Assembly: GCF_041103235.1 (NCBI RefSeq) | Contig: NZ_JBGCUN010000001.1 | Span: forward strand, 2,294,001-2,358,000 | From: Yoonia sp. R2331 | GTDB lineage: Bacteria > Pseudomonadota > Alphaproteobacteria > Rhodobacterales > Rhodobacteraceae | DNA: 64,000 nt | Direction of reading: 5' to 3' | Shown: piece by piece, positions 44,414-60,553 of the stretch | Numbering within the stretch: the stretch's first letter is position 1 | Layout: every line of letters begins with the position of its first letter | Program-made: the position numbers and the translations under genes | The notes under the pieces: model-generated | Databases searched by the model: none | What the model saw: only the letters and a program-made list of their open reading frames with translations | What the model was told of the DNA's origin: nothing

Positions 44414-44438
44414 AACGCTTGGGGCGCAGAAGTGTTCC
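44414..44438 (-). promoter_or_regulatory. EcfG-type promoter for DUF2945-topoisomerase IB
   Basis: Minus strand GGAAC-N17-GTT: GGAAC at 44438-44434, GTT at 44416-44414, 34 bases from the start codon. Confidence 0.8.
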
Positions 44439-44545
44439 CACGCGTCGCGCCGCAGCCAGTGCATTTTCCAAGATCACAGCAGGCGGGAACGAACAGCGCC
44501 GCGCGCGGGTCGGTCCGGCGATTTCAACTCAAACAAGAGAACCCC

Positions 44546-44673
44546 ATGAACAGCCTCAAACACGTCTACTTTGATCAATGGCAAGACGTATGGAGTGGCA
44601 GAGCTCTACGCCGAATTGGAAGCACAGACGCGTGACGCGGAAAGGGCAGACAACTTGAAAGCCGCGCAAACCT
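44546..44673 (+). pseudogene. possible broken small gene
   Basis: Two frames look protein-like in sequence: MNSLKHVYFDQWQDV from 44546, then in the neighbouring frame YGVAELYAELEAQTRDAER and DNLKAAQT before a stop at about 44673. A one-base shift near 44588 would join them into a ~43-residue protein. Either a recent frameshift or coincidence. An upstream GGAAC with only a partial -10 is at about 44480. Confidence 0.35.
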
Positions 44674-44703
44674 GAAGTGGGACGTTGAGCGTCATTGACA
44701 CAT

Positions 44704-44743
44704 AAAGAAGCCCGATCCAGGCAAACTGGTCCGGGCCTCTTTA
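44704..44743. terminator. bidirectional terminator before mscS stop
   Basis: GCCCGATCCAG/CTGGTCCGGGC stem (two internal mismatches) with GCAAA loop; flanked by AAAGAA on the left and TCTTTAG on the right, so both strands have short T-runs. Serves the mechanosensitive channel gene on the minus strand. Confidence 0.7.
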
Positions 44744-44758
44744 GTCAATGTTGAGCAC

Positions 44759-45676
44759 TTACTCTGCCGCGTATTGCATATTGCTTTCGTCGCTTTCGAC
44801 CACTCGCAGTTCCGGGTTTTGGTGAACGAGTGTTCGCGTCGGGAACGGAATATTGATATCCGCCTCATCAAGCGCCTCTTTTACACGGCGCTTCATATCG
44901 GCCTGATACGCGAAATATTCCTCGGTATCGCACCACACGCGCACAAGAAAATCGACGCTACTGTTGCCCAGATTGTTCACCTGAATGAACGGTGCGGGAT
45001 CGGCATGAGAGCGTTCGTCAGCCATAATTGTATCTTGGATCACTTGCTCTGCCTTAGCGAGATTGACACCGTAACCCACACCAAACGTCCACTCTGCCCG
45101 ACGAGTCGGATATTCAGAGTAGTTTTTGATCTTGTTTCCCCAGACTTCAGAGTTTGGCACGATCACTTTGACATTCCCGATATTCGCGATCTCGGTATAG
45201 TTCAGCGTGATTTCCTTTACCGTACCCATCGTGCCGTCGACCTCGACGAAATCACCGATCTTGAGGGGTCTGAACAGGATGATCATGATCCCGGCCGCGA
45301 CATTTGACAGTGTCCCTTGCAAGGCAAGGCCAACGGCCAGACCTGCCGCACCAATGACGGCCACGATTGACGTCGTTTCGACCCCGAAAGTGTTGAGGAT
45401 AAACAGACAGGTAAATGCCAGCACGACATAACGCGCAATGTTGCCCAGAAAGCTGAACAGGGTGTTGTCCAGCGATGCGTGATTATCACCGATCTTGTGG
45501 ATTTGCCGCCGCAAGAAACCAGCGACAGCAAAGCCCACGATCAGAATAAGTATGGCGGCGACGGTGTTGCCGAACAACGCGATCAACGTATCGAGTGTCA
45601 GATAGTCAGCCAGCGACTGCCCGCCATAGATCTCGGTCGTAAAAAGGCTTTCGCCCCAGTTCATGAGGTTTTCCAT
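44759..45676 (-). CDS. small-conductance mechanosensitive channel (MscS family)
   Basis: 305 residues. Three N-terminal membrane helices; the pore helix is read as VIGAAGLAVGLALQGTLSNVAAG with the Gly/Ala packing of MscS TM3, followed by the beta domain (RPLKIGDFVEVDGTMGTVKEI) and PNSEVWGNKIKNYS. Opens under hypo-osmotic tension to release solutes. Downstream of a 69-residue gene sharing an EcfG-type promoter at 45973-45997; separated by 29 bases. Confidence 0.93.
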   Translation of the reverse strand: MENLMNWGESLFTTEIYGGQSLADYLTLDTLIALFGNTVAAILILIVGFAVAGFLRRQIHKIGDNHASLDNTLFSFLGNIARYVVLAFTCLFILNTFGVETTSIVAVIGAAGLAVGLALQGTLSNVAAGIMIILFRPLKIGDFVEVDGTMGTVKEITLNYTEIANIGNVKVIVPNSEVWGNKIKNYSEYPTRRAEWTFGVGYGVNLAKAEQVIQDTIMADERSHADPAPFIQVNNLGNSSVDFLVRVWCDTEEYFAYQADMKRRVKEALDEADINIPFPTRTLVHQNPELRVVESDESNMQYAAE

Positions 45677-45705
45677 GCGAAAATCCGTATTGCTATTTCA
45701 GTCAG

Positions 45706-45915
45706 TCAGAAGCGTGAGAAGACGTCGGGCGGCGTGTCAGACATCGACCGCGCTTGCGCCTTCATTTTCTGACGCACCTCTGCGGGCGACATACTGACCG
45801 GTCCTTCCACCGTGCATGGATAGCGGAATGATGTATTCCCGCGCTGGATGTCGATGCGGCCTTCAAATGCCTCGGCGGCAGGGTTGTAGCGCAGGTTTCT
45901 GATCTGAACGCTCAT
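45706..45915 (-). CDS. small conserved hypothetical protein upstream of mscS
   Basis: 69 residues. Starts SVQIRNLRYNPAAEAFEGRI and has DIQRGNTSFRYPCTVEG, looking like a single small beta-rich domain, then MSPAEVRQKMKAQARSMS. No signal or membrane segment. Start at the ATG preceded by GGAGAG; the longer frame is disfavoured. Position between an EcfG-type promoter and mscS suggests a stress role; the function is not recognised. Confidence 0.7.
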   Translation of the reverse strand: MSVQIRNLRYNPAAEAFEGRIDIQRGNTSFRYPCTVEGPVSMSPAEVRQKMKAQARSMSDTPPDVFSRF

Positions 45916-45972
45916 GTTTCTCTCCTTCAAAGCTCGGGCCGCAGCGCGTGGCGCGACCAATTTGACAAGAAG

Positions 45973-45997
45973 AACGGCGCTTGGCGCAAATGGTTCC
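45973..45997 (-). promoter_or_regulatory. EcfG-type promoter for the 69-residue gene and mscS
   Basis: Minus strand GGAAC (45997-45993), N17, GTT (45975-45973), 58 bases before the start codon. Confidence 0.78.
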
Positions 45998-46087
45998 CCG
46001 TAAGCGGCAAACCAATATTTGGAGCAACTGGGATTTTCCGAATGTGTGAAAAGCGCGTCCGTGACGGGTGATTTGACAGAGGCCCGG

Positions 46088-47323: not shown

Positions 47324-47362
47324 CTGCACGTATCAAAAGCCTTCACGTTTGTTGCAAGCACA

Positions 47363-47396
47363 ATGCGCGGGAACGGAATGCGTTCCGGAGCATTAA
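47363..47396. promoter_or_regulatory. symmetric EcfG-like site between DUF2254 and FNT genes
   Basis: A near-perfect palindrome: AATGC at the left and GCATT at the right, with GGAAC on the plus strand at 47370-47374 and its mirror GTTCC at 47382-47386. On both strands GGAAC is followed after 17 bases by ATT instead of GTT, so the -35 fits EcfG and the -10 is a variant. Confidence 0.45.
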
Positions 47397-47423
47397 GGGA
47401 TGATTGCACATAACGGAGCAAAC

Positions 47424-48236: not shown

Positions 48237-48254
48237 CAAAAGCCGGGATTTATG

Positions 48255-48280
48255 GGAACGAATTCACATTGATCCGTGTT
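48255..48280 (+). promoter_or_regulatory. EcfG-type promoter for the PLDc_N gene
   Basis: GGAAC (48255-48259), N18, GTT (48278-48280), ending 38 bases before the start codon; a spacing one base longer than most in this region. Confidence 0.65.
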
Positions 48281-48317
48281 GGGCCCGTAACGAAACGATG
48301 AAATGGAGGTTTCAGTT

Positions 48318-48506
48318 ATGGAATATGCTGGTTTTGGCGGTCTGATTATCCTCGCCCTGAATGTTTGGGCCATAGTGTCCATTATCGGGTCTGGTGCGTC
48401 GACGGGCAGCAAAGTGTTGTGGACCCTTCTGGTCCTCGTACTGCCGATCCTTGGCTTCATTGCCTGGCTTGTGGCCGGCCCGCGGTCTGCCACCGTCTCT
48501 GCCTAG
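48318..48506 (+). CDS. small membrane protein with PLDc_N domain
   Basis: 62 residues: two hydrophobic helices (FGGLIILALNVWAIVSIIG and LWTLLVLVLPILGFIAWLVAG) with a short loop, the pattern of the phospholipase D nuclease N-terminal (PLDc_N) module, here standing alone. Inner membrane, role unknown. TGGAGG ribosome site eight bases before the ATG. Followed by a strong terminator and then DUF202. Confidence 0.85.
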   Translation: MEYAGFGGLIILALNVWAIVSIIGSGASTGSKVLWTLLVLVLPILGFIAWLVAGPRSATVSA

Positions 48507-48520
48507 GGATCGAAACGATG

Positions 48521-48554: not shown

Positions 48555-48568
48555 ATGGAGACATCAAG

Positions 48569-48931
48569 ATGAAGAATTTCGACACTGAAAAGGATCACCG
48601 AACCAACTGGGCAGAGGACCGGACATTGCTGGCGAATGAACGCACGTTCGCCGCATGGATGCGGACAGGAATGGCTTGCGTTGCAATAGCGATTGGTTTG
48701 AAGGCCATTTTTGGTGCGACTGAACCAACCTGGATGGCCAAACTTGTAGCGGAATTTTTCATTGTCATTGCAATCGTCATTTTCTGCACGGCTGCTGCGC
48801 GGTCCCAGAAAGCGCAACGCCGCATCGAAGAGCATGATGCAACCGCCCAATCCCACGGCGCAATGATTGCGACGTCGGTCATGCTGGTAATCGGCACGGC
48901 ATCGGCTGGTATCCTGCTTTGGATTTTATGA
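48569..48931 (+). CDS. DUF202 (YidH) membrane protein
   Basis: 120 residues. Family signature NWAEDRTLLANERTFAAWMR followed by three membrane helices (TGMACVAIAIGLKAIF, LVAEFFIVIAIVIFCTAA, MIATSVMLVIGTASAGILL). Inner membrane, function unknown; often stress-associated. Starts 15 bases after the terminator of the previous gene with ATGGAG as ribosome site; I see no separate promoter, so terminator read-through may supply transcription. Confidence 0.92.
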   Translation: MKNFDTEKDHRTNWAEDRTLLANERTFAAWMRTGMACVAIAIGLKAIFGATEPTWMAKLVAEFFIVIAIVIFCTAAARSQKAQRRIEEHDATAQSHGAMIATSVMLVIGTASAGILLWIL

Positions 48932-49174: not shown

Positions 49175-49199
49175 AACGCGCTCGCGCAGATTTCGTTCC
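49175..49199 (-). promoter_or_regulatory. EcfG-type promoter for the 58-residue gene
   Basis: Minus strand GGAAC (49199-49195), N17, GTT (49177-49175). Confidence 0.82.
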
Positions 49200-49207: not shown

Positions 49208-49232
49208 GGAACGTTCAACCAGCCAGCGCGTT
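49208..49232 (+). promoter_or_regulatory. EcfG-type promoter for the AI-2E transporter gene
   Basis: Plus strand GGAAC (49208-49212), N17, GTT (49230-49232). Back-to-back with the opposite promoter at 49175-49199, eight bases apart. The start codon is only 20 bases downstream, implying a very short leader. Confidence 0.82.
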
Positions 49233-49252: not shown

Positions 49253-50275
49253 ATGCGCACATCGGTAAACCAAGGCTGTCTAGTCATCGTGGCGATTGCG
49301 GCGGGCATTCTGCTTCTGCAGCAGACCAGCTATATTCTGGTCCCTGTTGTCGCCGCTTTGACACTTGGTATCGTGATGACGCCCGTATCGGACCTGTGGG
49401 ACAGGTTACGCATTCCAAATGCCCCCGCTGCTTTCCTGACGATGCTCTTTGCTGTTGCAATCATCTTTGCGGTCATCCTGTTGATCGAGCCCTACGTGAC
49501 ATTGGCGATAGAACAGGCACCGATCATACGCGCGGAACTGCGCGATACCGTATTTGAAGCGCGACGTCTTTTGCGCGGGCTGGAAGCGATATCGGAAGAC
49601 ATGGCAACCGCGATCGAACCTGGCGCGGGTGCCGCAGGTGACGAAGACACAGTGACTGTTCCATCGTTGACCGACGCGCTATTCTACGCACCCCAATTCA
49701 TGGCGCGCCTTTTGATCTTTGTTGGCACGCTCTACTTCTTTCTGCTGGTCCGGACGGACATCTACGATGGCCTGAGCCGGAACATCAAACCGCTCGCCAA
49801 ATCCGACCTTAGGTTGGCCGCAAAACAAGTATCGCGATATGTTCTGACGATTGCGGCGATTAACGCAAGCTTTGGCGTCGTAATTGCTTTGGCCATGCAG
49901 ATAATCGGGATGCCGACGCCTGTGATCTGGGGGATTTTGGCATGTCTGTTGAACTTCATGCTTTATCTGGGACCAGCAACACTCGCTGTCGCGTTGACGA
50001 TCGCCGGGATCGTCGCATTCGATGGCGCTGCAAGCTTCTTGCCGGTGGCCATCTATGTCACATTGAATGCCATTGAGGCGCAATTTGTTACGCCCGCTCT
50101 TGTCGGGCGTAACCTGTCCGTGAACCCGTTGTTGGTGTTCCTGTCGCTTGTTTTCTGGCTTTGGATCTGGGGGCCGGTTGGTGGCATCATAGCAATCCCG
50201 ATCCTGATCTGGACAATGACCGTCCTGCGCGGTGCTGCTGGTCAGACCATTTCGGCCGGGGCGCCCGGCAAATAG
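49253..50275 (+). CDS. AI-2E family transporter
   Basis: 340 residues. Pattern of the TqsA/PerM/YdiK family: about eight helices with the conserved C-terminal segments NFMLYLGPATLAVALT, IEAQFVTPALVGRNLSVNPL and LWIWGPVGGIIAIPIL. Members export AI-2, drive Na+/H+ exchange, or have unknown substrates. Start after GGAGGGA; the six preceding in-frame codons are excluded. The last 34 bases overlap the end of the convergent phospholipase D gene. Confidence 0.88.
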   Translation: MRTSVNQGCLVIVAIAAGILLLQQTSYILVPVVAALTLGIVMTPVSDLWDRLRIPNAPAAFLTMLFAVAIIFAVILLIEPYVTLAIEQAPIIRAELRDTVFEARRLLRGLEAISEDMATAIEPGAGAAGDEDTVTVPSLTDALFYAPQFMARLLIFVGTLYFFLLVRTDIYDGLSRNIKPLAKSDLRLAAKQVSRYVLTIAAINASFGVVIALAMQIIGMPTPVIWGILACLLNFMLYLGPATLAVALTIAGIVAFDGAASFLPVAIYVTLNAIEAQFVTPALVGRNLSVNPLLVFLSLVFWLWIWGPVGGIIAIPILIWTMTVLRGAAGQTISAGAPGK

Positions 50276-51774
50276 CGCGCGTCTTTCTGGCCAGCTTCGG
50301 CATCAAATGGAACAACAAAACCCTGGCGCTGTTCAGGATCGCAGGCAGAATTATTTGCCGCCAAGCCTGCCCATCCAGCGCGCGCGGTCCGCATAGCATA
50401 AAGCGCCTGATCTTCTGCGTGATTAAGCCAATGGTCAAAGCAGCGGGCCTTCAGCTTTGCCACTTCGGCCGGGGTTTGGGTCTGCACCCCGGTTTCTGTG
50501 TCCCAGTTCAGACTGCGACCGTTGATATTGGCCGACGAAACTATGCCTAACTTGGCATCAAAAATTGATACCTTCGCATGCAGGTAAATGATCGGAGAGC
50601 CGAACAGCGTCCCCCGATCATCCGTTTCCTTTGCACGGACAGGCCGAACAGGCGACCCCACGAACAGCCGCTCTCCAAAGGCCTGCTGAACGATGTCGAT
50701 GCATTTTGCCTGCAAATGCTCGCCGAAACCGGTGTCGGATCCCCATGTGTCATTGAATGCGATCTCCTCCGGGGCCGCTGGCAAAAGCATAATCATATCA
50801 AGAGATGATTGTTCTTTTGCCCTCACCGCAAGTTGCTGGGCGAGCTCTTCGTCCCTGAAAAATTGGCTTTCAAAGTAGATCAGCTCTTCGGACTGGCGGA
50901 TTGCATCGTGGTGTGCGGTCGCGATTTCACGAAAGATCGTTTTCGGCGACATCCGAAAAAGTGAAAAGCCGCGCCGCGCCGAAATGGTACGCAAAAGCTT
51001 TCTCGGGTGCGGCACATCACGCCCCAGCAGCGCATCCGTTAGCGTCAGCAGATGATCGCGCGCTTCTTTCGCGATGCTCCCATCAACGATCACTTGCACA
51101 TCATGCCAAGTGCGAACAGCGCCCCGGTCGTGCTCTGGGGTGTCAAAGCGCCGGGCATTCAGGTCAAGTCCGCCGACATAAAGCCGCGCATCATCAAAAA
51201 CGGCCATCTTCTGATGGTGCGACACAGGGAAAAGCGGTGGCGGTGGAAATTTGCGCGCTACAAGCTTGCCGCGCGTTTTTCTGACCAAGGGCGGGGCACA
51301 TTCAAGCAGGCTCGCGTCGTCAATGCCTTCATCGTGCAGTTGGGAGATCTGCTTCCCAATCTCGTTGATGGTACGTGGCCATAAACCGACACGCGGCAAC
51401 CACCCAACCCGGGCGGGATGCATCAGTGCAGTCACATTCAGGTTCTCAGGGTGGTCAGATGCTTCACCAGCCGCCAAAAGCGCCTTGATGCTTCGCCACG
51501 TCCCCAGATGCAGCCCAGTGCGGACGACAGGATCAAAGTCTGACAGGATCAGCCTTAGCCGGACGCCGCGATTCAACGTCGCCACAATAAGGTCAAACCA
51601 CGTGTCACCATGTGTCTTTGCGCGGGTCGAATACAACGACGTCCAAGGATCAAATATCCGAAAACCCGCGACGATGTCGCATTTGGCATCTAGAAATTCT
51701 TCTTCAAGCCGTGGAAAGGCCTCAGCCGCAGTCACCAGGACGTCGAACCGCCGCGACTTGGACTTTTCGGTCAA
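50242..51774 (-). CDS. phospholipase D family protein
   Basis: 510 residues. Two HKD motifs make one active site: HHQKMAVFDDARLYVGGLD near residue 190 and LHAKVSIFDAKLGIVSSAN near residue 405, each H-x-K-x4-D. No signal peptide; cytoplasmic or peripheral. Could hydrolyse or transfer phosphatidyl groups. Its ATG overlaps the stop of the HisKA_2 histidine kinase gene, making it the fourth member of the nepR-ecfG-kinase operon. Confidence 0.9.
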   Translation of the reverse strand: MTEKSKSRRFDVLVTAAEAFPRLEEEFLDAKCDIVAGFRIFDPWTSLYSTRAKTHGDTWFDLIVATLNRGVRLRLILSDFDPVVRTGLHLGTWRSIKALLAAGEASDHPENLNVTALMHPARVGWLPRVGLWPRTINEIGKQISQLHDEGIDDASLLECAPPLVRKTRGKLVARKFPPPPLFPVSHHQKMAVFDDARLYVGGLDLNARRFDTPEHDRGAVRTWHDVQVIVDGSIAKEARDHLLTLTDALLGRDVPHPRKLLRTISARRGFSLFRMSPKTIFREIATAHHDAIRQSEELIYFESQFFRDEELAQQLAVRAKEQSSLDMIMLLPAAPEEIAFNDTWGSDTGFGEHLQAKCIDIVQQAFGERLFVGSPVRPVRAKETDDRGTLFGSPIIYLHAKVSIFDAKLGIVSSANINGRSLNWDTETGVQTQTPAEVAKLKARCFDHWLNHAEDQALYAMRTARAGWAGLAANNSACDPEQRQGFVVPFDAEAGQKDARYLPGAPAEMV

Positions 51775-53480
51775 TAGTCCCGCGCCTCCGGCTCGAACTG
51801 CATGATCTCGAAATCCACTTGCAAGGTATATTGGCTGTCGGATTTTTCGGTCGTGATCTGCCCGCCCAATCGCAGGGCGAAAGACTTCATCAGTTCCTGC
51901 CCCATGCCTGAACTAGCGGCGTTGGGGGTTGGCCCAACGCTGTTTGTCATTTTGAACTGACAGTGTTGGCCATCTTGTTTCAGACTGACGGAAACTTCCG
52001 GTTCACCACCCTGCAAGGCACCTACATACTTCATGGCGTTGGTCATTGCCTCGGCCACCAAAAGTGAAAGCGGGACAGCCTGATCCGGGAACAACAACAC
52101 GCGATCAACATCGGCGCTAATTTCAAGGTCAAGTTCTTCCACTTCGACCATCTCAGAGGAGTTATCGATGATCTCTCGGACGAGGGCGCCACTGTCGACC
52201 CTGCCCCCGACCGGTGATTGGTAAAGATCACGGTGGATGGTGGCGAGGCTGATCACCCGGTCTTGCAGACGTGACAGCACGGTGCGCGTTTCTTCGTGAT
52301 CTGCGTTGCGGATTTGAATGTTCATGATCGAAGAGATCAATTGCAAGTTGTTCTTAACCCGATGATGTATCTCCTTGACCAGTACGCCTTGCTGTCGCAA
52401 CGCGTCCTCCAATTCAGCCTCATCGCGCAAGAGCTGCTCGCTCATTTCTTGAAAACCATTTTCAAGTCGCTCGATCTCAATCGGCATCGTCACCGCATCA
52501 TGGCTGAAATCAAAAACTGTTCGATCTTCAGCAAATCTTTCCATCCTGCGCCGCAGACTTGAAAGGTGCCGCAGGACAAGGGTGCGGATTGCAAGCATTG
52601 CGACACCCAGACTAGCGATCCACATCAACACCGGGAAAAGCGAAGGCGCGACAAGCGATCGCGTATCGGCAATCGAACGCCCGTCAACATCCCAGATCGC
52701 CATGACGGCAGCGGGGCTACCCTCGATCGTGACAATGCTGTACTTGCGTGTCTGGCCCGCGCCGTTCTGATCGCGAAAGACCTGAGCACGCCTTGTCGAA
52801 AGATCCTCCAAGGCGCGGCTTTCAGGCAATTCCATAGCAACCAAATCAATGCCTTGCCGTGATGTCAGGACCGCGCCATTTTCGTTGAAGGTTATCAGGT
52901 CAATAAGCCCCAACTCCTCCAGATGTTCCTCTGGATCGGGAAGCGTTCTGTGCGGGATCGAGACAGAAACAAAGCCGCCAAACTGGCCCGCATCAAAAAA
53001 GGGTTCAGATACGACGAAAACTGACTCTCTGCTTGCCGGTGCACTTTCATTTACGATGATCGTAGGCTGCTGCGCCGACATCGTTTCTTCAAATCTTTCA
53101 GTTTGGGACAGATCAAGCGGTGCATCCGCCGACGAACACGTAACAAGACCCGACAACGGCAAGACGCCGACAAAACTGAACTCTGAATTGCCGTTCACAA
53201 AATTCGACAGCACGCTAAAGCAGCGCGCGCTGTCGTTTTGCAATTCGGGCGCGATGGTGCCCATCAACCGCGCCGCCCCGACCGCGCGTTCGATCAGCAC
53301 ACGTTCCGCCGTCGCTGCGCGTTCCGTCAGACCCAGAAGCGCAAGACCCGCGCTACGATCCGCTTCTTGTGCAACCCTGTTGGTCTGCGCAATTGCAATC
53401 AGCCCCAAAGGAAGGATGGCAAGCGTCAACAGCACCAAAAGCTGGACGCTAAGCCGTTGATGCCACTTTTCTTTTGTCAC
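51771..53480 (-). CDS. HisKA_2-type sensor histidine kinase of the general stress response
   Basis: 569 residues. Membrane helix at ~12-30, periplasmic sensor domain of ~245 residues (Cache-like, with FVGVLPLSGLVTC and SEPFFDAGQFGGFVSVSIP), second helix at ~280-300, HAMP-like linker, then HisKA_2 KEIHHRVKNNLQLI with phospho-acceptor His372/373 and a HATPase domain (LLVAEAMTNAMKYV, SGMGQELMKSFALRLGG). Kinases of this class phosphorylate PhyR. ATGA overlaps on both sides join it to ecfG and the phospholipase D gene. Confidence 0.92.
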   Translation of the reverse strand: MTKEKWHQRLSVQLLVLLTLAILPLGLIAIAQTNRVAQEADRSAGLALLGLTERAATAERVLIERAVGAARLMGTIAPELQNDSARCFSVLSNFVNGNSEFSFVGVLPLSGLVTCSSADAPLDLSQTERFEETMSAQQPTIIVNESAPASRESVFVVSEPFFDAGQFGGFVSVSIPHRTLPDPEEHLEELGLIDLITFNENGAVLTSRQGIDLVAMELPESRALEDLSTRRAQVFRDQNGAGQTRKYSIVTIEGSPAAVMAIWDVDGRSIADTRSLVAPSLFPVLMWIASLGVAMLAIRTLVLRHLSSLRRRMERFAEDRTVFDFSHDAVTMPIEIERLENGFQEMSEQLLRDEAELEDALRQQGVLVKEIHHRVKNNLQLISSIMNIQIRNADHEETRTVLSRLQDRVISLATIHRDLYQSPVGGRVDSGALVREIIDNSSEMVEVEELDLEISADVDRVLLFPDQAVPLSLLVAEAMTNAMKYVGALQGGEPEVSVSLKQDGQHCQFKMTNSVGPTPNAASSGMGQELMKSFALRLGGQITTEKSDSQYTLQVDFEIMQFEPEARDY

Positions 53481-54031
53481 GATGGAAGGTTCGGACTTTC
53501 AACCACTGCCATTGTGGCCGTATCGGTCATTTCCAAAGCATCATCGTCTTCAAGTTGCAGCATTTCAGTCAATTTGGCCCGCGCTCTATTTACGCGGCTT
53601 TTCATCGTGCCCGGTGCGACCCCACACATCACGGCCGCGTCGTCGTAAGTGAAGCCGTTAGCGCCCACAAGGATAAGCGCCTCTCGGTGTTCGTCTGCCA
53701 ATTCTTCGAAGGCGCTTTTGAAATCCCTCATTTGAAGACGGCCGTCATGGTCAGGTTTGACCGACATCGCGTCCGAAAAGACATTGTCGACGTCAGCAAC
53801 CTCTCGCTTCAGCTTCCGCCGTGACGAATAGAAGTTGTTGCGCAAAATGGTGAACAACCAAGCGCGCATGTTTGTCCCACGCTCAAATTTGTCCATGTTG
53901 GTCCAGGCCTTGAGAACCGTATCCTGCAGCATGTCGTCAGCGGTCGCGTTGTTGCGCGTCAAACTCAGTGCGAACGCGCGCAACGCCGGCAGGTGCGTCA
54001 GCAATTCATCCTTGGGATCAACGTCACTCAT
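53477..54031 (-). CDS. ecfG: RNA polymerase sigma factor EcfG
   Basis: 184 residues, ECF15-type sigma factor of the alphaproteobacterial general stress response. Sigma2: LPALRAFALSLTRNNATADDMLQDTVLKAW; sigma4: LADEHREALILVGANGFTYDDAAVMCGVAPGTMKSRVNRAR. Held by NepR until PhyR-P titrates NepR. Translationally coupled to nepR (ATGA) and to the kinase (ATGA). Its recognition sequence GGAAC-N17-GTT occurs in front of its own operon and many neighbours. Confidence 0.95.
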   Translation of the reverse strand: MSDVDPKDELLTHLPALRAFALSLTRNNATADDMLQDTVLKAWTNMDKFERGTNMRAWLFTILRNNFYSSRRKLKREVADVDNVFSDAMSVKPDHDGRLQMRDFKSAFEELADEHREALILVGANGFTYDDAAVMCGVAPGTMKSRVNRARAKLTEMLQLEDDDALEMTDTATMAVVESPNLPS

Positions 54032-54192
54032 TTCTCGTCCTTCATCTCTTCGTCCTGCGCGCGCAGGACAGCCAAAAGGTCCAGAACTTCGTTCGGCATC
54101 TCGTTTTCTTGGTAGTCCGAAAAGACTTTCTTCAAGTTAAGCTCGAAGTACTTGTCGATCTTTTCTTGCTTAGGGCTATTCGACTTGGTCAT
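54028..54192 (-). CDS. nepR: anti-sigma factor NepR
   Basis: 54 residues. Short helical NepR pattern: EKIDKYFELNLKKVFSDYQ then EMPNEVLDLLAVL, the two helices that clasp EcfG or the sigma-like domain of PhyR. Start at MTKSN; a longer frame would reach across the promoter. It precedes ecfG with ATGA overlap and diverges from phyR. Confidence 0.9.
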   Translation of the reverse strand: MTKSNSPKQEKIDKYFELNLKKVFSDYQENEMPNEVLDLLAVLRAQDEEMKDEK

Positions 54193-54233: not shown

Positions 54234-54258
54234 GGAACCAACTTAGGTTGAACGTGTT
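54234..54258 (+). promoter_or_regulatory. EcfG-type promoter of phyR
   Basis: GGAAC (54234-54238), N17, GTT (54256-54258) ending 34 bases before the phyR ATG at 54293. Confidence 0.8.
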
Positions 54259-54265
54259 TCGTTCC
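54240..54265 (-). promoter_or_regulatory. EcfG-type promoter of nepR-ecfG-kinase-pld, overlapping the phyR promoter
   Basis: Minus strand GGAAC (54265-54261), N18, GTT (54242-54240). It lies almost entirely within the phyR promoter, so polymerases on the two must compete. Confidence 0.7.
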
Positions 54266-54292: not shown

Positions 54293-55102
54293 ATGACTGA
54301 CACGCAAGCGGAGGTGACGTTCACCGACTTGTTGACTGCGGAACTTCCCTACCTAAGACGGTACGCACGCGCGCTGACAGGATCACAAACTCGCGGTGAC
54401 AAGTACACAGTCGCCACGTTAGAGGCGATCCTCAAAGACCGAAGCGATTTTGAGAATGAAGACCCGATTAAAGTAAATCTTTTCAAATGCTTTCACGCAA
54501 TTTGGGCATCATCTGGTCAGATTCTGGTAGAGCCGGATGACAGTTTACTGGCCAGGGCTCATGGGCTTCTTGCCCAACTGACTGCAAACTCGCGAGAAGC
54601 GCTCTTGTTGCGCACGATTGAGGAATTCAGCACAGCGAATATCGCAAAGATTATGCAAATCGAGCGTGACGATGTCGTCGATCTTATCAAGGCTGCGAAC
54701 AAGGAACTGGCCCAAAACATCAAGGGCCGGGTGATGATTATTGAAGATGAACCAGTCATCGCGACTGATCTGACAGGGATCGTATCATCATTGGGCCACG
54801 ACGTCACAGGTGTCGCGCGTACCCATACCGAGGCACTGGAATTGGGGCGCGAGCAACGGCCCGACCTGATCCTTGCCGATATTCAGCTTGCCGACAATTC
54901 GTCCGGGATTGATGCCGTGAATGACTTGCTGGAAACGATGGATGTGCCAGTCATCTTCATCACTGCATTTCCAGAGCGGCTGTTAACCGGCGACCGCCCT
55001 GAACCTGCATTTTTGATCTCCAAACCCTTCAAAGAGGCGCAGGTTCTGTCTGCAGTCAGTCAGGCCATGTTCTTTGCTTCTACGGCAACGCTAAGGGGCT
55101 AA
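54293..55102 (+). CDS. phyR: PhyR: sigma-factor mimic with receiver domain
   Basis: 269 residues. N-terminal sigma-like domain (~10-140) without DNA-contacting regions, then a receiver of the FAT GUY group: acidic pair Glu151/Asp152 (MIIEDEP), phospho-Asp196 (LILADIQLAD), Thr224 and KPF-motif Lys244 (FITAFPERLLTG and LISKPF). When phosphorylated, it binds NepR and frees EcfG. GAGGGT precedes the ATG; an upstream in-frame ATG at 54266 lies beyond the promoter -10 and is unlikely. ExoD-like gene follows 7 bases later. Confidence 0.95.
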   Translation: MTDTQAEVTFTDLLTAELPYLRRYARALTGSQTRGDKYTVATLEAILKDRSDFENEDPIKVNLFKCFHAIWASSGQILVEPDDSLLARAHGLLAQLTANSREALLLRTIEEFSTANIAKIMQIERDDVVDLIKAANKELAQNIKGRVMIIEDEPVIATDLTGIVSSLGHDVTGVARTHTEALELGREQRPDLILADIQLADNSSGIDAVNDLLETMDVPVIFITAFPERLLTGDRPEPAFLISKPFKEAQVLSAVSQAMFFASTATLRG

Positions 55103-55109: not shown

Positions 55110-55736
55110 TTGAATACGACTACAATCGTCGCCTGCGGCAAAGCAGCCACAAAGCAGCGGCCACAAAAGCGGGCGTTGCGGCCCCTTGTCGACCGGGTTG
55201 TGGACAGCGCTGAAGGCGAAACGGTGAACCTTCGCACAATTCTGCAATCTGTTGGTGACGACAGTTTTGCGCCTGTGCTGCTGCTTCCAGCCTTGGCGGT
55301 GGCGACGCCGCTCAGCGGGGTGCCGCTTTTCTCTGCGCTGATGGGCGCGACGATCTTTTTGATCTCGCTACAGATGATACTGCGCAGGGAAAGCCTTTGG
55401 TTGCCTCGCTGGCTGCTGGATCGTGCGGCCAAGGCTTCAGTCGTCAGATCTGCATTTTCAAAGCTGCGATCGCTGGCAGATTGGATTGATCGCAGAACCC
55501 AATCGCGGTTCAATCTTCTGTTTCATCGCCCACTGATCTTAATCCCGCAGCTTTTGTGCCTGATGTCCGGGGCTGTGATGCCGCTGTTGGAGTTTGTGCC
55601 GTTCTCTTCGTCCATCATAGGTGCGGGAGTCGCACTTCTTGCTTTTGGCCTGACAAGCCGGGACGGCCTTTTCCTGCTGCTCGGGCTCTTTCCCTATGCC
55701 GCAGTAGGCTTGATGATTTTCGCGGGCTCAGGTTGA
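55110..55736 (+). CDS. ExoD family membrane protein
   Basis: 208 residues with TTG start; no ATG is available until a membrane segment, so TTG is assumed. ExoD pattern: VNLRTILQSVGDDSFAPVLLLPAL, TPLSGVPLFSALMGATIFLIS, and RFNLLFHRPLILIPQL; four or five helices. Members are linked to exopolysaccharide production or alkaline tolerance in rhizobia, mechanism unknown. Directly downstream of phyR, probably cotranscribed, with a terminator after it. Confidence 0.85.
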   Translation: MNTTTIVACGKAATKQRPQKRALRPLVDRVVDSAEGETVNLRTILQSVGDDSFAPVLLLPALAVATPLSGVPLFSALMGATIFLISLQMILRRESLWLPRWLLDRAAKASVVRSAFSKLRSLADWIDRRTQSRFNLLFHRPLILIPQLLCLMSGAVMPLLEFVPFSSSIIGAGVALLAFGLTSRDGLFLLLGLFPYAAVGLMIFAGSG

Positions 55737-56277: not shown

Positions 56278-56314
56278 GTTATCTCCTTTCATCAGTGTTG
56301 GATTGAACGGCTTG

Positions 56315-56476: not shown

Positions 56477-56532
56477 GGGTTGCTCCTTTGACTTGTTTTG
56501 CGCGACCTTTTTGGCCGCGCGCTCTGCAAAAC

Positions 56533-56557
56533 AACAAGGAGCGCCGCAATTCGTTCC
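56533..56557 (-). promoter_or_regulatory. EcfG-type promoter for DUF1328-dps
   Basis: Minus strand GGAAC (56557-56553), N17, GTT (56535-56533). Confidence 0.85.
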
Positions 56558-56683
56558 GGATTTTTCTATGCAACGATCTTTAGGCTCATGCGTTCGACGC
56601 GCATGGACGGGTTTATACACACAGCGACCACCAACGGGCTGTCACAAGTGACGCGCCATTCAACCGAAGGCCGGTGTCGACCT

Positions 56684-57049
56684 TTATGGATCGCCTTTAT
56701 GTACGGCCTCAAACGACGGGTCGATAGCCGCGACAAGCATGTCATTGGTGAATGGCAGATCGACAAAGACCGCCGGAAAAGACGTCTTCTGCTCCGCGCC
56801 GATCAGGACGATATGACTGCCCCGCGTCGCTGCAGCCATAACCGCATCGTGCAAGTCGTTATCGCTGGCCACAAGTGTGGCACGCGCAAACACGGTCGTG
56901 CGCGGGCCACACATCTGGAATGCTTTGGCGACGTCGGCGAACGTGCCACCGGATACCTTTACGGCGTCAGGATATCGCGACGAAAGCAACCCGTTGAGGT
57001 CCAGCGCCACCACCGGATCCGGTTCGATCAAGATGAACTGATTTGGCAT
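56684..57049 (-). CDS. receiver-like protein lacking phosphorylation residues
   Basis: 121 residues. N-terminus FILIEPDPVVALDLNGLLSS mirrors the start of response-regulator receivers (compare PhyR MIIEDEPVIATDLTGIVSS), and the overall length fits one receiver domain. The phospho-Asp strand reads RTTVFARATL without Asp, and the KPF motif is DLPF, so Lys is missing. A pseudo-receiver, not able to take phosphate. Divergent from the Crp/Fnr gene. Start at MPNQF. Confidence 0.65.
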   Translation of the reverse strand: MPNQFILIEPDPVVALDLNGLLSSRYPDAVKVSGGTFADVAKAFQMCGPRTTVFARATLVASDNDLHDAVMAAATRGSHIVLIGAEQKTSFPAVFVDLPFTNDMLVAAIDPSFEAVHKGDP

Positions 57050-57132
57050 GAGAACCCCACGTTGTGCCGACATGCGGTAGCACACTGTAAAAATCGCCCG
57101 CATTAATCTATGACATAGCAAGGAGAGAATTT

Positions 57133-57861
57133 TTGGCCACAAAATGTGAAAACTGCCCGCTCCGTGGACGTGACCTGTTTATCCAAATGTCTGCTGATGA
57201 TGTGACGACCATGCAGTCATTCAAAGTCGGCGAACTGGTCGTTGACGCAAAGACGCCGATCCTGCTGGAAGGTTCTAACAGTCCCCAACTTTACACAGTG
57301 CTGCAAGGCATGGGCCTGCGCTACAAGTTCCTGGTTGATGGGCAACGGCAGGTTGTGAATTTGGTGATGCCCGGCGATTTCGTCGGCCTGCAAGCCGGTG
57401 TGATGGGCGAGATGGGGCATTCCGTTGAAGCCACAACAAAAATGGTCCTCTGCGTATTTGATCGCAGGGCCTTTTGGCAGTTCTTCCGTGAAAACCCCGA
57501 AAGAGCCTTTTCGCTCACGTGGTTGGCCGCCGTAGAAGAACATTTTCTGGGCGATGCTTTGGCCACAATTGGTCAGCGCACGGCCTTGCAAGCAGTGTCC
57601 TGGGCACTTTGCAAAGTGTTTGTGCGTGGCCAAAAATTGGGTCTTGTGAACAACGGTGCCATGCCTTTGCCATACCGACAGCAGGACATTGCAGATGCGC
57701 TAGGTCTGTCTCTGGTTCATACCAACAAGATGCTGGCAAAGCTGAAATCCCGGCAACTTGCGCATTGGTCCGATGGCACGCTTCGGGTCAGTGATATCGC
57801 CCAACTCGCGCAGGTCGCGCGCCTCCCCGATTATGATATCCCGGCCCGTCCGCTTTTCTAA
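57133..57861 (+). CDS. Crp/Fnr family transcriptional regulator
   Basis: 242 residues, TTG start after AAGGAGAG. cAMP-binding-like beta roll (~25-140: LYTVLQGMGLRYKFL, MPGDFVGLQAG), long dimer helix and winged helix with PLPYRQQDIADALGLSLVHTNKMLAKLKSRQL. N-terminal KCENCPLRGRDLF carries two Cys but not the full four-Cys FNR cluster. Ligand unknown. Divergent from the pseudo-receiver gene; followed by an EcfG-type promoter. Confidence 0.9.
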   Translation: MATKCENCPLRGRDLFIQMSADDVTTMQSFKVGELVVDAKTPILLEGSNSPQLYTVLQGMGLRYKFLVDGQRQVVNLVMPGDFVGLQAGVMGEMGHSVEATTKMVLCVFDRRAFWQFFRENPERAFSLTWLAAVEEHFLGDALATIGQRTALQAVSWALCKVFVRGQKLGLVNNGAMPLPYRQQDIADALGLSLVHTNKMLAKLKSRQLAHWSDGTLRVSDIAQLAQVARLPDYDIPARPLF

Positions 57862-57876
57862 AACCTGAAAAAAAGC

Positions 57877-57901
57877 GGAACGATCCCGGCCCTATCGTGT
57901 T
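57877..57901 (+). promoter_or_regulatory. EcfG-type promoter for the 82-residue gene
   Basis: GGAAC (57877-57881), N17, GTT (57899-57901), 32 bases before the start codon. Confidence 0.85.
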
Positions 57902-57933
57902 GTTTGAGCAGAACCACAAGATGGGAGAAAACG

Positions 57934-58182
57934 ATGAAAACCATTTCCGTAATCACAGCCGTTTTGGCCGTCGTCGCAGTTGGTTTGGGTATCTATCTCG
58001 TTGATATCGAACAGACCGAAGAAGCGGCTTTGCCGGACGTTGATGTATCGGTCGAAGGTGGCAACCTGCCGGCATTCGATGCAGAGGTCGGCGACGTTGA
58101 TGTCGGCACCGAAGAAATCACCTTGGACGTGCCAACAATCGACCTGCAAAGCCCCGAAGAACAGGCGTCTGAAGACAGCTAA
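57934..58182 (+). CDS. membrane-anchored or exported acidic protein, hypothetical
   Basis: 82 residues. N-terminal helix MKTISVITAVLAVVAVGLGI, then a very acidic tail (LPDVDVSVEGG, VGDVDVGTEEI, SPEEQASEDS) with hardly any positive charge. No clear signal-peptidase site, so membrane-anchored with the tail in the periplasm is the likely layout. GGGAGA before the ATG. Good EcfG-type promoter. I do not recognise the family; a hairpin separates it from the next gene. Confidence 0.75.
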   Translation: MKTISVITAVLAVVAVGLGIYLVDIEQTEEAALPDVDVSVEGGNLPAFDAEVGDVDVGTEEITLDVPTIDLQSPEEQASEDS

Positions 58183-58196
58183 TCCGTAATGCAATG

Positions 58197-58219
58197 ACCC
58201 GCCACATTTTGTGGTGGGT
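58197..58219 (+). terminator. attenuator-like hairpin between two stress genes
   Basis: ACCCGCCACA/TGTGGTGGGT (one G-T pair) closely spaced, without a T-run, between the 82-residue gene and the DUF883-like gene. Could lower or protect the downstream message. Confidence 0.4.
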
Positions 58220-58241
58220 CAAAACCACGAAAGGAAACGCA

Positions 58242-58505
58242 ATGACAAAGACCGCAGAAACCGCAAAACAAAACGGAAAATCTGATAGTGCCGCCGCATT
58301 TGCAGCCCAAGCAAATGAAGCGGTGGAAAAAGGTGTGGCTGCCGCACACGACACCGCAACGCAGGTTGCCGAACACGCCAGCGATGAATTGCGCAAGGTC
58401 ACGGATGCCAGCACGAAATTTGTTCGTGAGAATCCCGGAACAGCTATTGCCGGGGCTGTGGGCATTGGTGTCTTGCTGGGCCTCGCGTTGCGTGGCCGCG
58501 ACTGA
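58242..58505 (+). CDS. DUF883/ElaB-like membrane-anchored protein
   Basis: 87 residues. Long Ala-rich amphipathic helix (SAAAFAAQANEAVEKGVAAA; AEHASDELRKVTDASTKFV) followed by a C-terminal helix FVRENPGTAIAGAVGIGVLLG ending in LRGRD, the YqjD/ElaB arrangement. E. coli YqjD and ElaB tether ribosomes to the inner membrane in stationary phase; whether that holds here is unknown. Start after GAAAGGAA. Presumably transcribed from the promoter at 57877. Confidence 0.85.
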   Translation: MTKTAETAKQNGKSDSAAAFAAQANEAVEKGVAAAHDTATQVAEHASDELRKVTDASTKFVRENPGTAIAGAVGIGVLLGLALRGRD

Positions 58506-58529
58506 ACATTTCCAATCGACCACGGAAAT

Positions 58530-58564
58530 GGCCGCTGCGATGCAAATCGCGCGGCCTTTTTCTT
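58530..58564 (+). terminator. terminator after the DUF883-like gene
   Basis: GGCCGCTGCGAT/ATCGCGCGGCC stem with one bulge, GCAA tetraloop, then TTTTTCTT. Confidence 0.88.
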
Positions 58565-58581
58565 GTCTCTGCCCGGCGAAA

Positions 58582-59196
58582 CTAGGGTGAGGCGGACGCC
58601 GTTGCGGTCAGATCGTATTGGGCGTTGCGCGTGATTGTCAGCTCGGCATTTGATACCGCCGGCGCTGTGTCGTCTGCACCGCCGCAAACGATTTGGCGTA
58701 CGCCTGATCCATGCCCTTCCAGCAAGACGTCGGTGATCCGCGCGACCCGGCTGACGTGACAATCAACTGGCAGATCGGACAACTCTGAAAACCAAACAGC
58801 AGCCGGGTCGCCGTTGGGCAGCGCCGTCAAATCGCGGCCCTGCCGCCGATTGAAAAGTGCGGCCATCATGCTCGGTGAGATCGCGTTGCCAAATGGCCCG
58901 ACAACGACGTTCGGCAAAGTCGTCAGATCAATGAGCGGTGCGGTGCGCGCCACTATATCCTGCAGCTTTTGACGCATCTCATCTGGGTCACCGCGAAGTT
59001 TAATCGCACCTTCGGCAAGATCGACAGAATCGGCGGTGACCAAAAGCGGTGCAGAGCCCTCTTTGCCCATCATTTCAATCAAGAACATTTGCACCTGCGT
59101 GACCGGAAGGTCGAACATGACATCCTTGATCTCACCTTTCAGTGCGGGATCATGGGCATGACCGACCGGTTGATCAATCAATTCGGAAACTTTCAT
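58582..59196 (-). CDS. PRC-barrel-like stress protein
   Basis: 204 residues. Start MKVSELIDQPVGHAHDPALKGEIKDVMFD suggests a PRC-barrel-type beta domain at the N-terminus, followed by a helical middle (DEMRQKLQDIVARTAP) and a C-terminal barrel-like repeat (VDCHVSRVARITDVLLE). The assignment is by pattern only. Last gene of the CsbD-GSP26 group, beyond a terminator. Start at the ATG after GGAGAACATCC; the 61-codon upstream extension is not protein-like. Confidence 0.55.
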   Translation of the reverse strand: MKVSELIDQPVGHAHDPALKGEIKDVMFDLPVTQVQMFLIEMMGKEGSAPLLVTADSVDLAEGAIKLRGDPDEMRQKLQDIVARTAPLIDLTTLPNVVVGPFGNAISPSMMAALFNRRQGRDLTALPNGDPAAVWFSELSDLPVDCHVSRVARITDVLLEGHGSGVRQIVCGGADDTAPAVSNAELTITRNAQYDLTATASASP

Positions 59197-59216
59197 GGAT
59201 GTTCTCCAGTTCAACG

Positions 59217-59249
59217 AAAAAGGGCCAGCACGCGGCTGGCCCCTTTTGA
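59217..59249 (-). terminator. terminator of the PNPOx-type gene
   Basis: GGGGCCAGC-CGCGT-GCTGGCCC stem followed on the minus strand by TTTTTCGTT; lies between the two stress genes. Confidence 0.85.
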
Positions 59250-59255
59250 TTTCGT

Positions 59256-59771
59256 TTAAGCGGCGTCTTGGAAGCGGAAAACATGATGCACGCCGACATC
59301 GGGCGCAGCACCCCCTTCTGTCATGTTGGCCCGCAACAGTTTCAATCCAAGCAGGATCGCATTCGTTTCGGACGCCCAAACAGCGGCTTCACTTGGAACG
59401 AACTTCAATAGCCGAATTTTCGGATCCTGACGGCCGTTTTCAAACCAGGCACCGGCCAACGGGGTCCATATCTCATCCAGCTTGTCCGGATCGGTTTCAA
59501 AGCTGAGCCTTCCTTTCAGACTGGCCTGATAGTCCTCGCTGCTCGTCGCGAGCGTCAACATGCCATCTGCACCTGCACCTACGGCCATCGCAAGGTCAGT
59601 GTCCGCAGAGGTGATGAACCAGATCGCACCATCCTTGCGGTGGGCAAAATGGCTCATCGGTTGGGGATGTTGCCCGCTGTCAGGCACTGACAACATCACG
59701 ATCCTTGACTGTTCAAGTTGCCGCCAAAGCTGATCAATTGCGTCGTCTTTTGTTTCGGTCTGACGGGCCAT
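59256..59771 (-). CDS. pyridoxamine 5'-phosphate oxidase-like (GSP26) protein
   Basis: 171 residues, split-barrel flavin-binding fold of the general stress protein 26 group: SRIVMLSVPD near 22, PQPMSHFAHRKDGAIWFITS, TDLAMAV, YQASLKGRLSFETDPDKLDEIW and AWFENGRQDPKIRLLKFVP. B. subtilis GSP26 binds FMN/FAD; no activity is established. Starts three bases after csbD, same strand, so cotranscribed. Confidence 0.88.
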   Translation of the reverse strand: MARQTETKDDAIDQLWRQLEQSRIVMLSVPDSGQHPQPMSHFAHRKDGAIWFITSADTDLAMAVGAGADGMLTLATSSEDYQASLKGRLSFETDPDKLDEIWTPLAGAWFENGRQDPKIRLLKFVPSEAAVWASETNAILLGLKLLRANMTEGGAAPDVGVHHVFRFQDAA

Positions 59772-59774
59772 CGC

Positions 59775-59972
59775 TCAGCTCCCGTTGAACATGGCATCAA
59801 GTTCCTTTTCGACTTCCAGCTTGGCCTTGCCATACTTGCTGGTAATCAGTCCGACGAGCTGATCACGCTCACCTTTTGCTTCTTCCATTTCGTCATCGGT
59901 CAACTCGCCATAGCGTTCGCGCAGTTGGCCTTTGGCCTGTGTCCAATTGCCTTTGATTTGCTCCCAATTCAT
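59775..59972 (-). CDS. CsbD family stress protein
   Basis: 65 residues. MNWEQIKGNWTQAKGQLRER and YGELTDDEMEEAKGERDQLVG are the CsbD signature; small, highly charged and helical. CsbD is a sigma-B target in Bacillus and an EcfG target in many Alphaproteobacteria. The second of two adjacent ATGs was chosen because it gives a seven-base spacing to AGGAG. Followed by the GSP26-like gene. Confidence 0.92.
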   Translation of the reverse strand: MNWEQIKGNWTQAKGQLRERYGELTDDEMEEAKGERDQLVGLITSKYGKAKLEVEKELDAMFNGS

Positions 59973-60066
59973 CATGTTCTCCTGTTCTGGTTGCGGTGTC
60001 GTTGGAAAAGCGCCGTAATTGGGGATGACACCGTTTCAATCCCCGTCAGCGTACAGCGCGGTGTCT

Positions 60067-60276
60067 TCAGACCGATGGTGCGCCCATCGGTAAAGTGTCG
60101 AGGCGCGAAACCTCGCGGCTCAGAATATCAACGTTCTTGCGATGGCTTTTGAACGCCACATCAAAGACATCGCCGACGATGGGAATGGTGCCAATCGCCA
60201 GATCACAAGCCGTATTCAACGCCATGCGGGCGAGCGCGTTCGCCCACTTTTCATATGTCGCAAGATCTGCGGGCAT
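60067..60276 (-). CDS. DUF4112 protein, half-length form
   Basis: 69 residues: ALARMALNTACDLAIGTIPI then VGDVFDVAFKSHRKNVDIL, which matches the second half of DUF4112 as I know it; the N-terminal half (a first IP-x-GD membrane hairpin) is absent. It starts two bases after the YqaE stop (TAG-A-ATG), so it is coupled and likely made. Probably one membrane hairpin. Either a natural short paralogue or a truncated survivor. Confidence 0.7.
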   Translation of the reverse strand: MPADLATYEKWANALARMALNTACDLAIGTIPIVGDVFDVAFKSHRKNVDILSREVSRLDTLPMGAPSV

Positions 60277-60277
60277 T

Positions 60278-60436
60278 CTACTTGCGGGCGATGACATAGA
60301 CGGCGTGAACAATGCCCGGAACATAACCGAGCAAAGTCAGCAAGATGTTGATCCAAAAGTGTTTTGTCAGCCCCACCTCTAGAAATACGCCAAGCGGCGG
60401 AAGAATAACGGCGATGATGATGCGCAGCAGGTCCAT
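60278..60436 (-). CDS. YqaE/Pmp3 family small membrane protein
   Basis: 52 residues: MDLLRIIIAVILPPLGVFLE and VGLTKHFWINILLTLLGYVP, then GIVHAVYVIARK, the UPF0057/Pmp3 signature with two helices. Related plant and yeast proteins affect membrane potential in salt or cold stress. Begins after GAGGAT. EcfG-type promoter 34 bases upstream. First gene of yqaE-DUF4112-(csbD-GSP26). Confidence 0.95.
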   Translation of the reverse strand: MDLLRIIIAVILPPLGVFLEVGLTKHFWINILLTLLGYVPGIVHAVYVIARK

Positions 60437-60469
60437 TTGGGGATCCTCTTTGTTCCAGGTTGCCGCACC

Positions 60470-60494
60470 AACCCCCGATGGCTGTGATCGTTCC
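60470..60494 (-). promoter_or_regulatory. EcfG-type promoter for yqaE unit
   Basis: Minus strand GGAAC (60494-60490), N17, GTT (60472-60470), 34 bases before the start codon. Confidence 0.85.
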
Positions 60495-60528
60495 CAAAAA
60501 TAAGACCGCAGCAATCTTTGCGCCGTTG

Positions 60529-60553
60529 GGAACGAACTGGCGAAACCTGCGTT
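60529..60553 (+). promoter_or_regulatory. EcfG-type promoter for the DUF883-like/holin/DUF3618 operon
   Basis: GGAAC (60529-60533), N17, GTT (60551-60553), 32 bases before the start codon; back-to-back with the yqaE promoter. Confidence 0.85.

Follow-up and report, generated by a model that had tools for sequence, protein, structure and literature searches.

The question raised by this locus is why so many promoter-like sites of the EcfG type lie packed around the genes phyR, nepR and ecfG, given that the targets of a global stress sigma factor are generally pictured as scattered over the chromosome. The locus belongs to Yoonia sp. R2331, a member of the Rhodobacteraceae, and was studied within a stretch of 64,000 nucleotides (the window; contig NZ_JBGCUN010000001.1, positions 2,294,001 to 2,358,000). 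The part of greatest interest, here called the island, spans 16,140 bases (44414-60553). That an EcfG-type regulon clusters around phyR/nepR/ecfG is well supported by the distribution and sequence of the sites. The explanation that we consider probable is that a compact EcfG stress unit with a shared palindromic promoter is kept as a block and is passed on partly with plasmids.

A first-pass annotation had listed eleven sites of the form GGAAC-N17/18-GTT in the island, and all eleven are present as exact matches, each in its place. They are predicted to head the following genes:

44414-44438, minus strand: site before Hva1_TUDOR (44380-44168) and topoisomerase IB (44171-43206).
45973-45997, minus strand: site before a 69-aa protein (45915-45706) and MscS (45676-44759).
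48255-48280, plus strand: site before PLDc_N (48318-48506) and DUF202 (48569-48931).
49175-49199, minus strand: site before a 58-aa protein (49143-48967).
49208-49232, plus strand: site before an AI-2E family transporter (49253-50275).
54234-54265, both strands: 32-bp palindrome of two fully overlapping sites, with the plus-strand site 54234-54258 (N17) directed at phyR-exoD and the minus-strand site 54265-54240 (N18) directed at nepR-ecfG and the genes for a histidine kinase (HK) and a phospholipase D family protein (PLD).
56533-56557, minus strand: site before DUF1328 (56476-56315) and Dps (56277-55780).
57877-57901, plus strand: site before an 82-aa protein (57934-58182) and a DUF883-like protein (58242-58505).
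60470-60494, minus strand: site before Pmp3, DUF4112, CsbD, a PNPOx-like and a PRC-like protein (60436-58582).
60529-60553, plus strand: site before a 158-aa protein labelled by us DUF883-like (it has no Pfam match), holin-X and a DUF3618-like protein (60586-62201).

All eleven sites precede start codons, and the GTT end lies 20-57 bases from the chosen start, a wider range than the 32-58 bases that had been given for most of them. With the spacing relaxed to GGAACN{16,18}GTT, there are 19 matches in the window, whereas 100 shuffled versions average 4.7 and all stay below 19. The genome-wide scan that had been proposed as a check yields 184 N17/N18 matches (114 with N17 and 70 with N18) in 4,027,224 bases on 8 contigs. 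The island holds 12 of these where 0.69 are expected (Poisson P 1e-11, for a region that was chosen for its apparent richness in sites), and other 16.1-kb stretches of the genome hold at most 5 each. The independent checks are a scoring matrix and the recurrence of the sites in relatives.

The matrix was derived from 180 distinct sites located upstream of 12 leader genes at 53 relatives' loci. This genome and L003, a near-identical locus, were excluded, so the matrix was trained without this genome, yet on homologous sites. It places seven of the eleven sites among the top 16 of the 184 matches and the remaining four at ranks 21, 24, 32 and 46, and the eleven score above the 172 matches outside the island (Mann-Whitney P 5e-7). 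The twelfth exact match of the island (50309-50333, plus strand) is rejected as a real site and taken as background, because it lies antisense within the PLD gene and ranks only 165 of 184 (score -7.45). Outside the island a high matrix score is insufficient by itself, because 10 of the 15 high-ranking sites inspected there (13 elsewhere in the genome and 2 in the window) sit within long open reading frames (ORFs), as called mechanically. Three others precede a start codon (C1:2485927, C3:8007 and C3:72043) and two are ambiguous. The first of these three, about 25 bases before an ATG, has the highest matrix score of the genome.

There are 30 genes called in the block that surrounds the island (43.2-62.2 kb), and their spacing suggests eleven predicted units covering 26 of them. 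Each of these proteins was compared by tblastn with 80 PhyR loci, and at its best match in a locus (E up to 1e-4) an exact site was sought within 220 bases upstream; the counts refer to the 54 loci classed as Rhodobacteraceae, L003 included. Genes that lead a unit usually carry the site in relatives as well: NepR 38/38, DUF1328 46/47, PLDc_N 32/33, the 58-aa gene 16/16, the 82-aa gene 9/9, the 69-aa gene 4/4, Hva1_TUDOR 11/14, Pmp3 9/11, the 158-aa DUF883-like leader 10/12 and AI-2E 28/41. Most inner genes rarely or never do: topoisomerase IB 0/12, DUF202 0/12, Dps 0/23, holin 0/13, DUF3618 0/13, PRC 0/8, PNPOx 0/4, PLD 1/28, ExoD 1/20, DUF4112 1/11, HK 2/52 and DUF883 2/11. We regard the eleven island sites as very probable EcfG promoters. 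The earlier claim of a regulated island is supported by the packing of sites around phyR/nepR/ecfG and falls short for the four of 30 genes that lack an exact site (Crp/Fnr, a receiver-like gene, FNT and DUF2254).

The degree of concentration was compared among genomes with a stricter motif, GGAACBWWN{14,15}GTT, which was selected partly on this genome. It has 21 sites here, 10 of them within about 10 kb of phyR, a region amounting to 0.5% of the genome. For 36 Rhodobacteraceae genomes, the corresponding numbers are 1-12 of 15-45 strict sites (3-34%). Elsewhere, the sites near phyR number 1/17, 1/9 and 1/19 in Sphingomonas, 3/92 and 3/81 in Rhizobium, 3/46 in Ciceribacter, 1/27 in Bauldia and 4/33 in Maritalea, and Denitrobaculum, also outside the family, has 8/54. 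Among the 46 genomes compared, no other is as concentrated as this one. Thus the clustering, which had been called unusual for targets that are ordinarily scattered, is indeed denser than the genome background and than three Sphingomonas and two Rhizobium genomes, but it is graded within the family and not peculiar to this genome. In S. melonis, the sites are described as spread throughout the genome (PMC6599016; papers are cited here by PMC number from excerpts of their text).

The sites at 54234 (plus strand) and 54265 (minus strand) had been taken for two separate neighbours and are in fact one palindrome, GGAACCAACTTAGGTTGAACGTGTTTCGTTCC, within which they overlap completely. An EcfG-type motif thereby precedes both phyR and nepR. 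The two -10 elements (54256-54258 and 54240-54242) do not overlap with each other, and each -35 element adjoins the -10 element of the opposite promoter. Such an overlapping pair is present in 51 of the 56 Rhodobacteraceae-type loci (L003-L058, the exceptions being L030, L051, L052, L054 and L056) and in none of the 24 other loci (L059-L082).

A search with the dyad pattern GGAACN{1,2}AACN{11,14}GTTNNGTTCC, which misses 31-bp forms, was made in 149 genomes of the family, this one included. The pattern occurs in 40 of the 66 genomes bearing PhyR (match cutoff 1e-25) and in none of the 83 PhyR-negative ones (Fisher P 5e-19, relatedness ignored), and its reversed version, used as a control, matches in only one of the 149. 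There are 41 dyads, 29 of 32 bp and 12 of 33 bp. Forty of them stand directly before phyR, and the 41st is on a different contig from the partial PhyR of its genome. A draw of 385 genomes from the class gave four with the dyad, namely three of the five belonging to the same family and one of the 380 others, the latter counted irrespective of phyR content. As a structural finding, a 32-bp dyad with the predicted architecture of a two-way promoter is sound.

The same 32-bp dyad was also seen in a Bauldia genome and in a genome of another family (L110 5138-5169 and L111 6087-6118). There it adjoins genes for receiver-only response regulators rather than phyR, and at L110 the other side resembles a histidine kinase. 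The dyad is not tied exclusively to phyR, because these two genomes outside the family have it beside receiver-only genes.

The genes that would be served by the palindrome are the following:

54293-55102, plus strand: PhyR, anti-anti-sigma response regulator with sigma-like and receiver domains (NF006623 349 bits, cutoff 240; PF22029, PF22233, PF00072).
55110-55736, plus strand: ExoD-family protein, 7 bases past phyR.
54028-54192, minus strand: NepR-like anti-sigma factor of 54 aa, assigned by position, size and similarity.
53477-54031, minus strand: ECF sigma factor, EcfG by context (NF009198 306 bits, cutoff 270, a model named just RNA polymerase sigma factor; PF04542, PF08281).
51771-53480, minus strand: sensor histidine kinase of the HisKA_2/HWE type, PhyK-like (196 bits, below the PhyK model cutoff of 750).
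50242-51774, minus strand: PLD, overlapping the end of the kinase gene.

The PhyR assignment is further supported by structural database (PDB) matches that include an entry named anti-anti-sigma factor PhyR. The sigma factor gene follows nepR in the operon, and we take NF009198 and the class ECF15 to stand for EcfG. The NepR-like protein gives tblastn matches of about 40% that coincide with genes annotated NepR on two plasmid loci (L103 and L104), and it is 35% identical over 37 aa to a paralogue encoded on contig C3 of the same genome.

Three further features of the block concern the genes without an exact site:

47362-47394, both strands: two degenerate sites that interleave symmetrically, GGAAC-N17-ATT on either strand, between DUF2254 (47323, minus strand) and the formate/nitrite transporter FNT (47424, plus strand).
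56684-57049, minus strand: 121-aa protein that we read as receiver-like (no Pfam match), without EcfG site.
57133-57861, plus strand: Crp/Fnr family regulator, without EcfG site.

Exact sites are found upstream of FNT in 14 of 18 relatives' loci and upstream of DUF2254 in 10 of 21. None was found upstream of the receiver-like gene (0/24 loci) or of Crp/Fnr (0/28 loci). The Crp/Fnr protein might act on the block as an additional regulator.

These features suggest how the unit might operate. Stress would be sensed by the PhyK-like kinase and PhyR, NepR would be titrated by PhyR, and the EcfG so freed would guide RNA polymerase to the eleven promoters near its own gene. The predicted targets are Dps, MscS, topoisomerase IB, CsbD, Pmp3 and small membrane or DUF proteins. 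Perhaps, when EcfG-polymerase is seated on the dyad, either orientation can be adopted, which would yield the phyR-exoD RNA or the nepR-ecfG-HK-PLD RNA but never both simultaneously. Since each -35 adjoins the other's -10, polymerase bound one way should have to cover the opposite promoter. The output of the anti-anti-sigma factor and that of the anti-sigma/sigma pair would then be fed from a single common input. Given the usual spacing between a -10 element and the start of transcription, the phyR RNA would begin near the right end of the dyad and the nepR RNA near the left end, with start sites about 28-36 bp apart. An RNA hairpin was considered as another role for the palindrome and rejected, because the expected transcripts start near its far end and would hardly include it. 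PhyR and NepR are binding partners, so transcription from a common promoter could keep the two in a set proportion; this ratio-keeping role is put forward tentatively.

The presence of phyR modules beyond the block bears on whether it is handed on. Contig C3 carries a second module (L083 8678-12002) with phyR2, nepR2, ecfG2 and HK2, whose PhyR, EcfG and HK are 57%, 63% and 29% identical to those of the window. This module has its own palindromic dyad, GGAACTTAACGCCTATCTTGGCGTTTAGTTCC, at C3:69521/69528 (the phyR2/nepR2 dyad), and an additional site before a 45-aa ORF. The window dyad and the C3 dyad are the sole two matches to the pattern in the genome.

There are 23 plasmid records that encode a PhyR relative at 1e-40, and 15 of them are from Rhodobacterales (10 species). 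One record was opened for each of these ten species. Their loci contain 3-10 sites per 20.7-24.8 kb, compared with 0.6-1.5 for control motifs, and they share 16, 9, 3, 7, 10, 3, 6, 6, 7 and 8 of the 30 window genes. The dyad is exact in six, has 1-2 changes in three and is absent from pRLO149_94. The richest of them, the 78-kb plasmid of S2214, has homologues of 16 genes, with identities of 81% for PLDc_N, 69% for Dps, 65% for PhyR, 63% for EcfG and 63% for Crp. Its strict sites number five and are confined to 40.9-46.3 kb, next to the module; four of them precede start codons, and the fifth falls within ecfG. On pSC52_2 (L106 2421-6675), two further genes annotated as response regulators lie near the stress module.

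On balance we consider it slightly more likely than not that the block is portable. A broader generalization, which we rate as less likely than not, is that the stress response of Rhodobacteraceae could be a portable, self-contained cassette of sensor, switch, sigma factor and targets, at times on plasmids and stackable, with a hard-wired ratio of PhyR to NepR-EcfG. Such a cassette might be expected to work in a new host, because its own promoters would come along and the palindromic promoter would hard-wire the PhyR:NepR-EcfG ratio whatever the level of EcfG.

Several points weigh against the proposal of a compact, partly plasmid-borne unit with a shared promoter. With regard to the regulon, three inner genes are exceptions, in that an exact site does precede them by no more than 220 bases in a share of the relatives (MscS 4/17, CsbD 10/19 and EcfG 42/53, the last because the 220-base window spans the short nepR to the dyad). 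Clustering varies, with only 1/34 strict sites at the locus in L034 and 3/34 in L004, and weaker scattered targets may be missed, because outside the island just exact GGAAC/GTT matches with N17/18 were counted. With regard to the switch, the NepR-like protein has no Pfam or NCBIfam match and no convincing PDB match. The dyad pattern is unmatched in 26 of the 66 PhyR-bearing genomes, four of which were inspected and gave one 31-bp form and three without any. The S2214 dyad (L100 11872-11974) has GTA in place of GTT on both sides, a change mirrored in both -10 elements. Experiments on other systems add to this. For five bidirectional promoters of E. coli, basal transcription was too low for the two directions to compete; competition shows there only once one direction is strongly activated, and it then lowers noise (PMC12825309). 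The PhyR of Rhodobacter sphaeroides is described as having no major role in general stress and as acting mainly in membrane stress (PMC5830050). With regard to transfer, a non-mobilizable type is assigned to 20 of the 23 phyR plasmid records, all but one of the ten plasmid loci share just 3-10 of the 30 genes, and on pRLO149_94 (L102), a 94-kb plasmid of Roseobacter litoralis, both strict sites are more than 20 kb from phyR. The latter plasmid presumably carries photosynthesis genes as well. The PhyR tree, on which Sulfitobacter needs at least four changes and Yoonia at least three, is a quick one that relies on submitters' species names, and paralogues can mimic transfer on it.

Some of these points are what would be expected of an ordinary EcfG locus, in which the sites are EcfG promoters and the clustering reflects inherited order and local gain of stress genes, with neither mobility nor a special role of the palindrome. 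Divergent phyR and nepR-ecfG genes under EcfG promoters are usual in the class (PMC4814048), the clustering is graded across the family and the phyR plasmids are mostly non-mobilizable. Moreover, there is no integrase or conjugation gene among the 30 block genes by Pfam, and a tRNA scan found no tRNA within 43-63 kb, so no insertion point is indicated. However, PhyR is patchy within the family, being present in only 66 of its 149 genomes, and one plasmid carries 16 of the 30 genes. The block has a G+C content of 55.1%, compared with 58.8-62.4% in the remainder of the window. Two neighbour genes to the right of the block were compared: the first has a match in L003 alone, and the second has one in L003 plus matches of only 27-31% in L032, L035 and L036; the left-hand neighbours lie outside the reach of the compared loci. 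An ordinary locus also sits uneasily with the changes that Sulfitobacter needs on the tree and with a dyad that varies in its centre yet keeps to a length of 31-33 bp. We consider this explanation unlikely, albeit the most serious alternative to the portable unit.

A second alternative is that a dimeric regulator, such as the Crp/Fnr protein of the block, uses the dyad as its operator, and that the dyad only looks like two EcfG sites. A near-perfect inverted repeat present in many genomes would suit an operator, as would the mirrored GTA of S2214, and a Crp/Fnr homologue is present within the locus in 29 of the 54 relatives' loci. Yet each half of the dyad consists of a -35 element and a mirrored -10 element of the very motif that heads the single units, and the Crp/Fnr box is unlike it. 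Mirrored variation was sought in 31 of the 41 dyads, namely those with two-base gaps on both sides. Their outer arms are conserved and their centre is not, and mirrored variation beyond the consensus was not seen at the eight arm positions outside the core, apart from one nominal P of 0.047. The unmirrored arms therefore fit two promoters that are each kept to their own consensus. An operator with strictly coupled arms is rejected on this ground, the GTA pair of S2214 being opposed to that decision, and an operator of any kind seems very improbable.

A chance origin for most of the eleven sites can be dismissed, for although the loose motif has 277 matches in the genome, the density in the island, the matrix ranking, the position of every site before a start codon and the recurrence in relatives all speak against it.

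If the portable unit is real, a regulon packed beside its own switch, with kin on plasmids, could be gained in a single step, and the uneven occurrence of the response among Rhodobacteraceae would then be easier to understand. The palindrome in turn poses a testable question: are opposing stoichiometric regulators kept proportional by transcripts that compete for one polymerase site? Neither a palindromic phyR/nepR promoter nor a portable EcfG block is described in the open-licence PMC literature as far as its searched text extends, subscription papers lying outside that search.

The closest known systems share parts of this arrangement. The 153-kb plasmid or chromid pDSHI02 of Dinoroseobacter shibae carries phyR, nepR, ecfG, the kinase, Dps, DUF1328, PLDc_N, DUF2945, PLD and Crp/Fnr. 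Unlike the present block, it is extrachromosomal, its dyad has one mismatch to the pattern, and its nine strict sites extend over 37-147 kb. On this chromid, genes for a kinase, a sigma factor and a hypothetical protein (Dshi_3834-3836) are upregulated in light/dark starvation (PMC4373377), and under salt shock the chromid is described as essential (PMC9426580). From the order of products, these three genes appear to be those of locus L101.

The locus RSP_1271-1274 of R. sphaeroides likewise has a kinase, a sigma factor and a NepR-like gene followed by phyR on the opposite strand, with Crp/Fnr downstream, and its nepR-ecfG start lies opposite phyR (PMC5830050). That locus was tested mainly as a membrane-stress system, and the excerpts of the paper mention neither a target island nor a palindrome. 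Bidirectional sigma70 promoters of E. coli and Salmonella resemble the dyad in that a symmetrical sequence takes polymerase two ways and one binding blocks the other (PMC12825309). They differ in that they share a -10 region and have starts mostly 18 bp apart (PMC10268837). The dyad has the overlapping opposed elements by which such promoters are recognized, but the reciprocal -10 overlap (PMC10268837) is not found in it. A further hallmark of bidirectional promoters is a distance of 7-25 bp between the divergent starts.

The general stress response of PhyR, NepR and EcfG provides the framework for all of this. The proteins are the same, divergent phyR and nepR-ecfG driven by EcfG are a class-wide feature (PMC4814048), and the motif is of the same kind as the GGAAC-N17-20-GTT of S. 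melonis (PMC6599016). What differs here is that about half of the strict sites lie in one block beside the switch, that the divergent promoters are fused into one palindrome, and that there are two modules in this genome and others on the plasmids of relatives. Thus, the cluster with its palindromic switch promoter is a variant of the known PhyR-NepR-EcfG system.

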